Source: Candidatus Zhuqueibacterota bacterium
GTDB taxonomy: Bacteria; Zhuqueibacterota; Zhuqueibacteria; Oceanimicrobiales; Oceanimicrobiaceae
DNA length: 39,381 bases
Assembly (NCBI GenBank): GCA_029262055.1
Contig: JAJDAD010000018.1
Coordinates: 1-39,381 of the forward strand
Direction: 5' to 3'
Shown here piece by piece: positions 30,837 through 37,183 of the stretch. The notes below the pieces were generated by a model. It was not told where the DNA came from and did not search any database. It was given only the letters and a program-made list of their open reading frames with translations. Numbering within the stretch: position 1 is the first letter of the stretch; each line of letters opens with the position of its first letter. The position numbers and the translations under genes are program-made.

Positions 30837-31148
30837 ATTACACCTGGAAACCAGAGGCCTCAGACCAAGGAAACCAAGTGAGAAATATTAGTAAGATAGG
30901 CACTGCCTGTGGCCTGGAGATTTTCCTTGTTTCGCACGCTGTGACCGTTTATCTTTTTTACTTACCAACGATATTTGATGAACAAGACCGGGAGGGCGTG
31001 CTTGATTCCCAATTCAGAATATCCTCATTACGCGATAAAGGAACCCGCGACTGCCAGTTTTGAGGCATTAGCATGGATGGGCAGTGCAATTCCTTGTGCA
31101 TTCGCGCCGCCGAACAGGTGGCTGGGACGTGAGAAAGAAAATCGTGTG

Positions 31149-31168
31149 GCACAGGCTTCAGCCTGTGC
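31149..31168. repeat. REP-like palindrome, copy 1
   Basis: GCACAGGCTTCAGCCTGTGC is a 9-bp inverted repeat around TC. It lies in a longer stretch shared with 33746-33763, both preceded by an A-rich GAAAAT(C/T)GTGTG and followed by CTA. Repeated intergenic palindromes of this size are typical REP elements. Confidence 0.7.
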
Positions 31169-31424
31169 TAACCTGCCAGTGCACCTGGACGCTGCCACTG
31201 GTGCGTGATTTCACAGTCAACGCTAGTCAACGCAGCAATTCAGATGGCTCAGAAGGCAGCATCGGTGACCGCGTTGTCATACACAAAGAACATAAACTTT
31301 TGTCCAGTGGAGTTGTCATATGGTCAAGGCAGTTGAAAGAAACCTTGCTCAGGAGAACTTTTGAAAGAACAAAACGTTCTCAAATGAATGGTAACTTGAA
31401 GAACCTTACGAACGGAGATTACTT

Positions 31425-33655: not shown

Positions 33656-33745
33656 TTGCAAATCGACTCCAGCCTAACGTCTGTTATAGTGGGGAGAAGG
33701 ATCCGGGCGACAGGTGGTCAGAGCATGAAAAGGAAAATTGTGTGC

Positions 33746-33763
33746 CACAGGCTTCAGCCTGTG
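33746..33763. repeat. REP-like palindrome, copy 2
   Basis: CACAGGCTTCAGCCTGTG repeats the core of the element at 31149, including the flanking A-rich GAAAATTGTGTG and the CTA that follows. It lies between the AT-rich gene and the aldo/keto reductase. Confidence 0.7.
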
Positions 33764-33850
33764 CTAGCTCACGCGGACTCTGCCACAATGGTCTCTGATT
33801 CTCCCGGCTCAATGCCTTGCCCTCAAAAATAAATAACCAGGAGGTTACAC

Positions 33851-34920: not shown

Positions 34921-35076
34921 ATGGACTATTCAGAAGTCCGGAAAGACATCAATGACCGGGACTTAGCGAAGAATCAAAACTCTCGCGAAAGATTAGCACA
35001 TTGGCTTGATGCAAACATGGCGGGACTAACCTCTGCTCCGCAGGGGATTCCTGGTGAGAAAGGTCGGTGGGCGTAA
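34921..35076 (+). CDS. Possible small ORF or gene relic running into the repeat
   Basis: ATG at 34921 opens a 51-residue frame with a charged, protein-like start (MDYSEVRKDINDRDLAKNQ) and a stop TAA inside the structured repeat. The last codons (GEKGRWA then stop) are also encoded by the second repeat copy. No ribosome site. It may be a relic of an unrelated gene cut by the repeat. Confidence 0.25.
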   Translation: MDYSEVRKDINDRDLAKNQNSRERLAHWLDANMAGLTSAPQGIPGEKGRWA

Positions 35077-35101
35077 ATCCCCTGCGAGCATTGAGCAGAG
35101 G
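35030..35101. repeat. Structured repeat, copy 1 (72 bases)
   Basis: An outer stem CCTCTGCTC (35030-35038) pairs exactly with GAGCAGAGG (35093-35101). An inner stem CGCAGGGGATT (35039-35049) pairs exactly with AATCCCCTGCG (35076-35086). The 26-base loop and a 6-base bulge complete it. Copy 2 lies at 37058-37129. Confidence 0.8.
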
Positions 35102-35211
35102 AGCCTGTTGCCTGGTACGGCCCCATTGTGAGGAACACACAAGAACAACTTCAACAGGCGTTCGAGGAGCTTCGACAAGGAACATTCTTGCAGGACTCCC
35201 ATGGTGGGTAG
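35101..35211 (+). pseudogene. Pirin family protein, C-terminal relic
   Basis: An in-frame stretch of 36 codons plus stop reads EPVAWYGPIVRNTQEQLQQA and then FEELRQGTFLQ. This matches the closing part of pirin proteins (EPVA..GPFVMNT.EE...A..D...G.F). The first 85-90 percent of the gene is absent. The relic begins at the last base of the structured repeat, as if the repeat or a rearrangement cut the gene there. Confidence 0.7.
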
Positions 35212-35435: not shown

Positions 35436-36581
35436 ATGCCACACCAATTCTCTCAAGACTTTGGCCCCTTCGATGGAACCATCTGGCTCAACTGTGCCCA
35501 TCAGGGGCCGTTGCCGCGTATAGCTGCTTCTGCAGCGTATGAGGCTATCAGGTGGAAAATTGCGCCACACCATATTGCTACACTCGAACGCTTCGATGAG
35601 GTGCCACAGCGGCTCAAACACCTGCTAGGACAACTGGTTAGTGCTTCTCCCGATAACATCATTTTAGGAAATAGTGCTTCGTACGGTTTGCATTTGCTCG
35701 CAAACGGTATTCCCTGGCAAGCAGGAGATGAAATCGTCCTGATGCAGGGTGATTTTCCCTCAGATATTTTCCCATGGCTTGCCCTAAAACAACAGGGGGT
35801 CAGGATTCGCTTGATCAAGCCACATCATCATGTATTGCAAGTCGACGAACTGGCAGCGAATCTAACGCCATCAACGCGGTTGTTTTGTACTACATGGGTT
35901 CATTCCTTTTCAGGTTACACCGTGGATGTTCGAGCCCTGGGTGAAGTCTGCCGTCGAAATGGTATAACTTTCGTCCTTAATTGCTCTCAAGCTCTGGGCA
36001 CATTGCCGCTTGATGTTTCAACTGCCCCCATCGATGCGTTGGTGTGTGTCGGTTTCAAGTGGTTGTGTGGCCCATATGGAACTGGTTTTTGTTGGATGCG
36101 ACCAGAATTGCTTAAGTCGCTAAACTATAATCAAGCCTATTGGTTAACTATGCAGGCGGAAAATGCCTTGGCCAAACCACAGAATGAGATTGCTCTCCCG
36201 ACGGAGCGTGGAGCAGAGACGTACGATGTTTTTGGAACAGCTAATTTCTTTAATTTCTGCTCATGGATTGCTGCAATTGAATATTTGCTCGGTGTCGGAA
36301 TTGAGCAGATCAATGTTCATAATGACAACCTCGTTTCGCGTTTGATTGACGGATTAGATCAAGACAAATACGATTTGCTTAGCCCATACACGGGAGATAG
36401 CCGTTCGACACTGGTGTTCATTTCTCATAAACAACCAGACCGTAATGGGGCGATCCATGAAACACTACAACGTGAAGGCATCTACACTTCACTCCGGATG
36501 GGTAGCATACGTTTTTCTCCTCATCTATACAATACTCCGGAAGACATAGATCGTGCGTTATCGGTCTTACACGCAACTTAA
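35436..36581 (+). CDS. Class V aminotransferase-like PLP protein
   Basis: The protein has 381 residues from the ATG at 35436, chosen because AAGGAG lies 4 bases upstream; an earlier ATG at 35391 has no site. It has the fold-type I layout of isopenicillin N epimerase/cysteine desulfurase relatives. The PLP lysine is in CVGFKWLCGPYGTGF (K208). A phosphate-pocket segment ILGNSASYGLHLLAN lies near the start. The position that normally holds the Asp contacting the pyridine nitrogen reads VLNCSQALGTLPLDV, with Asn (N182) in place of Asp. This may weaken ordinary PLP chemistry. The substrate is unknown, and no partner gene is next to it. Confidence 0.85.
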   Translation: MPHQFSQDFGPFDGTIWLNCAHQGPLPRIAASAAYEAIRWKIAPHHIATLERFDEVPQRLKHLLGQLVSASPDNIILGNSASYGLHLLANGIPWQAGDEIVLMQGDFPSDIFPWLALKQQGVRIRLIKPHHHVLQVDELAANLTPSTRLFCTTWVHSFSGYTVDVRALGEVCRRNGITFVLNCSQALGTLPLDVSTAPIDALVCVGFKWLCGPYGTGFCWMRPELLKSLNYNQAYWLTMQAENALAKPQNEIALPTERGAETYDVFGTANFFNFCSWIAAIEYLLGVGIEQINVHNDNLVSRLIDGLDQDKYDLLSPYTGDSRSTLVFISHKQPDRNGAIHETLQREGIYTSLRMGSIRFSPHLYNTPEDIDRALSVLHAT

Positions 36582-36720: not shown

Positions 36721-36740
36721 CCCGCCCGCAATCGGGCGGG
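36721..36740. repeat. GC-rich hairpin, possible REP
   Basis: CCCGCCCG at 36721-36728 pairs with CGGGCGGG at 36733-36740 across a CAAT loop. It sits just upstream of the RAYT relic, where REP sequences usually lie. Its sequence differs from the palindromes at 31149 and 33746. Confidence 0.5.
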
Positions 36741-36817
36741 TGGCCAGGACGTAAACTGAAAGGGTGTGGCACGTGTCTTTTAGGCCGTGCCTTTTGCCGC
36801 ACAATCCAGCGCTTGTG

Positions 36818-36943
36818 ATGGATTCCAGGAACAAAGGGCAACCCAGGAAGACGGTCAAGCACTATAATACGCCGGGGCATGCACATGAGTTGACCTTTTC
36901 ATGTTACACGCTCGGCGTGCGAATGAGAGGCAAAGAATTCTAA
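36818..36943 (+). pseudogene. REP-associated tyrosine transposase (RAYT), N-terminal relic
   Basis: ATG at 36818 opens a frame containing KHYNTPGHAHELTFSCY, which is the characteristic start of RAYT (TnpA_REP, Y1-transposase) proteins. After this block the frame becomes unrelated (TLGVRMRGKEF) and stops at 36941. The catalytic HUH and Tyr region is absent, so the gene is truncated. RAYTs are single-copy domesticated transposases thought to spread REP palindromes; a relic near REP-like repeats fits that picture. Confidence 0.75.
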
Positions 36944-37057
36944 AGCTGGGTGACGCGTGCCTTTTACTGCCCTGCCGCCGGTGACGCCACATTCATCCCC
37001 CACACCCTAGAGAACATCGGGTAAGACGCCGGGTCTGACTCGTGCATGAGGTGGTAG

Positions 37058-37129
37058 CCTCTGCTCACAGGGGATTTCTTGGTGAGAAAGGTAGGTGGGC
37101 GTAAATCCCCTGCGAGCATTGAGCACGGG
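37058..37129. repeat. Structured repeat, copy 2 (72 bases)
   Basis: The same architecture as copy 1: CAGGGGATTT (37068-37077) pairs exactly with AAATCCCCTG (37103-37112), and the outer CCTCTGCTC (37058-37066) pairs with GAGCACGGG (37121-37129) with two mismatches. A run of 32 bases (37094-37125) is identical to 35066-35097 in copy 1. Confidence 0.8.
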
Positions 37130-37163
37130 GCACAGAGTGGCGTGGCCGGGCCACCCGCCTAGT

Positions 37164-37183
37164 ATTCTGACTTAATTCAGAAT
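37164..37183. other. Hairpin overlapping GntP stop codon
   Basis: ATTCTGA (37164-37170) pairs with TCAGAAT (37177-37183). The TAA stop of the minus-strand permease lies in the loop. On the minus strand a GTGGCC palindrome follows but no U-run, so termination is uncertain. Confidence 0.4.

Follow-up and report, generated by a model that had tools for sequence, protein, structure and literature searches.

A RAYT remnant close to the end of the contig

The window analysed here is the whole of contig C24 (39,381 nucleotides) of draft genome G000, an assembly of 5.74 Mb in 114 contigs that is 97.13% complete, and our comparisons drew on eight genomes of the same family (G000-G007), all of them draft assemblies; the order-wide search covered the same eight. 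Between an aminotransferase-like gene that ends at 36581 and a transporter-like gene on the opposite strand that ends at 37172 (both named from the look of their translations), a 41-residue open reading frame runs from an ATG at 36818 to a stop at 36943. The first-pass annotation had placed a truncated REP-associated tyrosine transposase (RAYT) at 36721-36943, which has the stop right but sets the start too far upstream, as coding begins only at the ATG. Codons 1-30 (36818-36907, plus strand), which include the peptide KHYNTPGHAHELTFSCY at 36857-36907, aligned with residues 1-31 of an intact G004 RAYT at 77% identity (E-value 1e-10), bearing out the RAYT start that had been proposed, and the match to the host genome's own RAYT on contig C66 was 68% over 28 residues. 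Past codon 30 the frame continues through REP sequence, and its last 11 residues (TLGVRMRGKEF) are not of RAYT origin but are the translation of another, decayed REP at 36909-36964. The HuH motif and the catalytic tyrosine regions are gone, as the annotation had said of the catalytic part, leaving a remnant and no working member of the family.

Searched by itself, the 41-residue fragment had no match in Pfam or NCBIfam even at an E-value of 10, so a profile search with the fragment alone fails where comparison with intact relatives succeeds. The empty profile search is what a chance reading frame with merely a RAYT-like look would give; however, the similarity to the intact G004 protein (1e-10) speaks against such a frame, and start codon, leader and REP all run collinear with their counterparts in the intact gene (87.7% identity at the DNA level), which refutes an explanation that we in any case regard as vanishingly improbable. 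The fragment is the remnant of a dead RAYT near REPs.

The sequence around the fragment showed that this was not a simple truncation, since both ends of a larger unit (36733-37159) are partly kept while its middle is lost or replaced. At the left, a GC-rich hairpin CCCGCCCGCAATCGGGCGGG (~36722-36741; reported earlier, along with the palindromes discussed below, as lying within 6 kb, and indeed present) overlaps the left terminus CGGGCGGGTGGCC (36733-36745, plus strand), an inverted repeat of the right terminus and the same terminus that bounds intact and deleted elements in G004. RAYT similarity ends at ~36907, and from 36909 the second REP, in direct orientation on the plus strand and of the C66/C30 type, supplies the last 11 codons of the reading frame. 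This decayed REP was missed by our covariance model at an E-value of 10 or less and was recognized by local alignment, scoring 37 against a C30 reference (25 or less in 500 mononucleotide shuffles) and 31 against a C66 reference (22 in shuffles); the score against a C103 reference was not significant (18, against 20 in shuffles). Further on lies an unrelated scrap at 37012-37050 (37003-37050 when read on the minus strand), 92% identical over 39 bp to G000:C103:70537-70575 (E-value 1.2e-8), which resembles the end of a gene and reads MHESDPASYPMF. It is followed by the REP of a second RAYT family (repeat D1, 37055-37125, plus strand), which matches the 3' flank of the RAYT on contig C112 (1.2e-9) and of which another copy, with a long hairpin, stands at 35027-35105 (plus strand; fold z -5.8). 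The unit closes with an incomplete inverted right end (~37123-37159, minus strand) that shares 86% identity with the C30 element's right end across 35 nt (1.6e-7) and carries the terminus GGCCACCCGCC at 37149-37159; our REP model matched only its head there (37140-37156), at a non-significant E-value of 0.33. At the two extremities, GGCGGGTGGCC and GGCCACCCGCC are perfect inverted repeats of each other. We found no second copy of the window element's own junction in G000.

The REP at the left end and its hairpin

The repeat at 36738-36793 (plus strand) is this RAYT's own REP, which the first-pass annotation missed. It was matched by R1, a covariance model built without the window (E-value 6.5e-13; fold z -3.2), and consists of the head GGGTGGCC, an A-rich spacer, a GTGT foot and a hairpin (36768-36791) with one bulged base, the window copy folding as the predicted bulged hairpin. 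A like-placed REP is also found 5' of the intact G004 gene and of the C66 RAYT, and from the head through codon 30 the left end in the window is 87.7% identical to the G004 unit over 179 bp. On the 3' side of the G004 gene there is an inverted REP, and that right end reads CACGGCCTAAAAGGCGCGTGGCACACG...GGCCACCCG.

Candidate REPs were collected by regular expression (n=35), and 27 of these were aligned, 23 from G004, three from G000 and one from G007; the eight that were dropped were the window's own copy (by design), three near-duplicates on C26, L013:1947, L062, L041 and L097:1961. Of 268 hairpin cells in these 27 ends, left and right, 97.4% were paired, and three of the ten hairpin pairs vary on both sides. 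None of 500 shuffles reached the covariation score or the number of cells varying on both sides, but the count of pairs varying on both sides was not above chance, as 270 of the 500 reached it. Since the regular expression fixed part of the stem, the pairing of the outer stem depends in part on how the candidates were chosen; the two varying inner pairs (columns 56/64 and 57/63) were free of that constraint. The stem foot does not show the GT[AG]G tetranucleotide, most of the 27 aligned REPs having GTGT there.

R1 scoring took 150 candidates per genome, so the copy numbers are lower bounds: at an E-value of 0.01 or less there were at least 79 matches in G004, 22 in G000, 16 in G005, 11 in G007, 5 each in G001 and G003, and 4 in G006, at least 142 in the eight genomes together, and no REP of G002 was among the matches listed at this threshold.

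An intact relative in G004

A query with the C66 RAYT had matches in seven of the eight genomes, and the only intact RAYT among them was that of G004 contig C60, a gene for 191 residues that stands between inverted REPs in a unit of 726 bp with the termini CGGGCGGGTG and CACCCGYCCG. The protein scored 83.2 bits against NCBIfam NF047646 (REP-associated tyrosine transposase; cut-off 80) and contains HVH at residue 69 and YIENNPV at residue 148, which we take to be the HuH motif and the catalytic tyrosine motif. Pfam gave Y1_Tnp only for the 191-residue protein; no further domain was found by Pfam, NCBIfam or PHROG searches with the fragment or the intact relative, and matches of the latter in the PDB were weak (E-values 0.13 and 0.51). 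In the host genome G000 (97% complete) we found no intact RAYT of the fragment's lineage; the C66 gene is frameshifted near FWQAGGGFDRNY, and the C112 gene lacks its 5' part and has a stop besides. One RAYT copy in G007, which runs to within 12 bases of the end of its contig, was classed neither as intact nor as damaged. A wider scan of genome contigs found a single distant locus, in a Flavobacteriales MAG, which was uninformative.

Several other arrangements of RAYTs in G000 were seen in passing. The 3' end of the C66 RAYT is present a second time, with the right REP, in tandem (C66:4402-4621, L013). At C112:39486-40310 (L032) a RAYT belonging to one family, together with its REP, directly abuts a C66-family RAYT at its broken 5' part, which looks like an insertion of one RAYT into another. 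On C103 (L041) two tandem RAYT genes on the minus strand (~73233 and ~73820) are separated and preceded by GTAG-led palindromes of the GTAGGGTGGAGTCCCACTCCACC type, and together they look like a classical REPtron of the GTAG class of REP, as that class is described in the available portion of PMC3733652. We also considered horizontal transfer between G000 and G004 on the strength of the 87.7% identity of the remnant, which does not establish it; a DNA search of G004 with the window's DAHP-synthase-like gene returned no match, a result that by itself is uninformative on transfer.

A series of internally deleted units

To describe units with two ends, neighbouring R1 repeats whose starts are no more than 900 bp apart were treated as pairs. 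Among the matches listed 26 pairs were oriented heads-outward, 4 heads-inward and 13 direct, the outward count being inflated because many of the training sequences came from heads-outward units. Only two of the 26 are full-length RAYT units (G000 C66, 704 bp, and G004 C60, 726 bp); the other 24 are shorter, and in G004 they form a series from 557 down to 182 and 95 bp, against 726 bp for the intact unit. For 24 of the 26 pairs the content was mapped to the intact reference, with both G005 units and the G000 C71 unit mapped to the C66 unit.

N-terminal codons are kept in 15 of the 24 shorter units. Twelve of these were placed on the intact reference (G001 C134 and, in G004, three on C11, three on C26, two on C61 and one each on C30, C51:93770 and C55) and three on the C66 reference (G000 C71 and G005 C193 and C39). 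C-terminal codons alone are kept in three (G004 C11:4460, C44:21208 and C51:95994), and the remaining six comprise four G004 C18 units that reach just past the start codon, the G000 C30 unit and a 95-bp doublet on C51 (G004:C51:89817-89911), a REP pair without coding sequence. Counted on a reference with its ATG at 91, the left breakpoints fall at ~135, 141, 159, 172, 185-190, 239 and 253. A hot spot for the left junction at codons 28-34, suggested by protein searches, was rejected by this DNA mapping, the spread of breakpoints indicating that the cluster reflects the detection limit of the protein search. We likewise rejected the idea of a conserved small protein of ~63 residues, prompted by several open frames of that length, as these frames arise at different junctions and continue into DNA that is unrelated.

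Two further structures in G000 belong beside these units. The REP doublet at C30:8945-9033 (L022) holds an inserted repeat with the inverted ends AGACTGTGTGAAAAC...GTTTTCACACAGTCT that looks like a MITE of another IS family. At C16:93015-93200 (L021) the first 11 residues of a RAYT (MARYKIIDNNG) are followed directly by 3' flank and REP, which looks like a product of internal deletion in the second (C112-type) RAYT family.

Several of the deleted units recur with one and the same junction at different sites. Three units on G004 C26 share one junction (reference ~159 to 532) and are ~94% identical over 377 bp; their similarity ends at CGGGCGGGTGGC and GCCACCCAGYCG, the flanks differ on both sides, and we saw no target-site duplication in these flanks by eye. 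A second junction is common to units on G004 C55 and C11 (398 bp at 84%), a third to G004 C11:4460 and C44:21208 (269 bp at 91%), a fourth to the four units on G004 C18 (86-93%) and a fifth to two units in G005 (221 bp at 82%). For the C18 units at 36452 and 36821 the 262-bp alignment includes some flank, making local duplication likely for that pair; where copies cluster locally, on C18 and C26, some may have arisen by segmental duplication or gene conversion, and the L066 and L067 copies look like duplicates of a larger segment. A 5' part on G004 C5 is 93% identical to the intact unit over 270 bp from the left terminus, with other DNA upstream, and homology starting at the terminus suggests that full-length units may have moved too. 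Deleted copies that share a junction, occupy different sites and are bounded by the ends, in the manner of MITEs, occur in G004 and G005; the window copy is single in its genome.

The palindromes at 31149 and 33746

The first-pass annotation had drawn attention to two copies of a CACAGGCT palindrome, at 31149 and 33746, and suggested that they might be products of a RAYT now dead at this site. The first is exact (GCACAGGCTTCAGCCTGTGC), but the second reads CCACAGGCTTCAGCCTGTGC, in which the outermost pair is broken, so that the full pattern matches only once. Both lie within a direct repeat of 57 nt that is 82% identical between the copies. When R1, whose training set contained neither window sequence nor the CACAGGCT form, was run on the window there were three significant places, namely the left-end REP at 36738-36793, 31116-31171 (plus strand; E-value 2e-7, hairpin z -4.0) and 33712-33766 (plus strand; 1e-3, hairpin z -1.9), the last being the same repeat in a more decayed state, for which 9 of 200 shuffles folded equally well. 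At genome scale the first palindrome still passed (2.9e-5), and the second was absent among the matches listed at 0.01 or less. As both match R1 in full register, the palindromes sit inside full-length, bulge-less relatives of the RAYT's REP. They are not the REP of this RAYT, its own being the bulged repeat at 36738-36793, yet the suspected kinship with REPs is upheld in that they are distant members of the same superfamily.

Copies do exist elsewhere in the genome, as the earlier reading expected, though they are rare: the exact core CACAGGCTNNAGCCTGTG occurs at four places in the 5.74 Mb, two of them in the window, and the contigs with the exact palindrome are C24, C30 and C64. These contigs are free of Y1_Tnp matches, of which the genome has 16, and hence no RAYT now carries the CACAGGCT palindrome. 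It is conceivable on this ground that the repeats are an independent REP family whose RAYT has been lost and which came to resemble the 36738 REP by convergence, and the CACAGGCT stem, which has no bulge and a different inner half, would fit that origin. We nevertheless think it rather unlikely, given that the head GGTGGC, the A-rich spacer, the GTGTG foot and the hairpin share their register with the RAYT-flanking REPs, and that a G004 REP with the inner half GGCTTCAGCC (L098:1381) bridges the two forms. We read the CACAGGCT repeats as diverged REPs of greater age, within the superfamily to which the 36738-36793 REP belongs.

A model for the unit and its relation to known systems

We consider it very probable that the element at 36733-37159 is a decayed RAYT transposon unit, of a family in which deleted copies that keep their ends can be moved in trans by an intact RAYT and continued deletion would give rise to REP doublets. 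Such a unit would comprise a left REP, a short leader, the RAYT gene and an inverted right REP. The HuH tyrosine transposase would recognize the bulged hairpin REP at each end, presumably on single-stranded DNA, and would move whatever stands between the two ends; we infer both the RAYT's role as mover and this single-stranded DNA chemistry. Copies that have lost the middle and kept both ends could, we propose, thereby be moved in trans by an intact RAYT, and further deletion would leave bare REP doublets. On the sequence evidence, the family apparently includes RAYT-derived miniature elements moved in trans and grading into REP doublets. In the window, decay would have set a REP of a sister subfamily against codon 30, filled the middle with an unrelated scrap and a REP of the second RAYT family, and truncated the right end.

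A more modest account would be that no mobile deletion derivative is involved at this locus and that one complete RAYT gene simply died and decayed where it stood, the REPs being no more than neighbours. The junction of this copy is unique in its genome, the middle of the element is a patchwork, and RAYT pseudogenes are on record in the available portion of PMC3686654, all of which would suit such a history. However, the left REP and the inverted terminus show a unit with two ends, and two-ended units with internal deletions are what this family commonly shows, so we hold the plain dead gene to be possible but somewhat doubtful. Within the preferred reading of a decayed transposon unit, the window element may be a decayed deletion derivative or a full-length copy gutted in place, its unique junction being compatible with either history.

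The element is a variant within the REP/RAYT kind and no new system. It resembles a REPtron in having a HuH/Y1 gene between inverted bulged-hairpin REPs that are also scattered in the genome (REPs at both ends of G004:C60; at least 79 R1 matches in G004 and at least 22 in G000), but differs in lacking a GT[AG]G foot directly at the stem, where GTGT mostly stands, and in having the conserved outer head GGGTGGCC further out. PATEs are reportedly palindrome-associated elements of IS200/IS605 in Haloquadratum, likewise internally deleted and palindrome-ended relatives of a Y1-transposase element, whereas the units here derive from a RAYT-type gene, not an IS200/IS605-type one, and occur in bacteria. 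TIRtrons, or TIRYTs, are RAYT-like genes between long terminal inverted repeats (PMC3733652, available portion). They share with our units a RAYT-like gene in long inverted ends and, according to that portion, moderately abundant repeat families, also as dimers. In contrast to them, the end consensus here is without the GGGGWSAS motif (by eye), a REP-type hairpin lies within the long ends, the HTH-type C-terminal domain of TIRYT subclass 2.1 was not found (Pfam giving Y1_Tnp only), and there are internally deleted copies with coding remnants, which the available portion of PMC3733652 does not describe.

Bertels and Rainey proposed that REPINs descend from REPs flanking an ancestral autonomous element (PMC3116915, available portion). 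Like the REPINs of that text, our shorter units have two inverted REPs and would form miniature mobile units; unlike them, the intermediates here still carry N- or C-terminal RAYT codons, and copy numbers are in the tens. RAYT units that lost their interior but retain pieces of coding sequence were nowhere described in the literature searched, which includes the available portions of PMC3116915, PMC3733652, PMC8266576, PMC2817692, PMC8049555 and PMC3686654 and lies outside most subscription journals and all preprints, leaving absence unproven.

It is an evenly balanced proposition that stepwise internal deletion in RAYT transposons is how REPINs arise, with the series kept within single genomes (726 bp intact, 557-182 bp with first or last codons and moving in trans, and the bare 95-bp doublet), and that the RAYT here would still be a true transposon with defined ends. 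With an intact RAYT, deletion derivatives whose junctions can be traced, and bare doublets all at hand, the origin of REPINs becomes testable by sequence and by in vitro cleavage.
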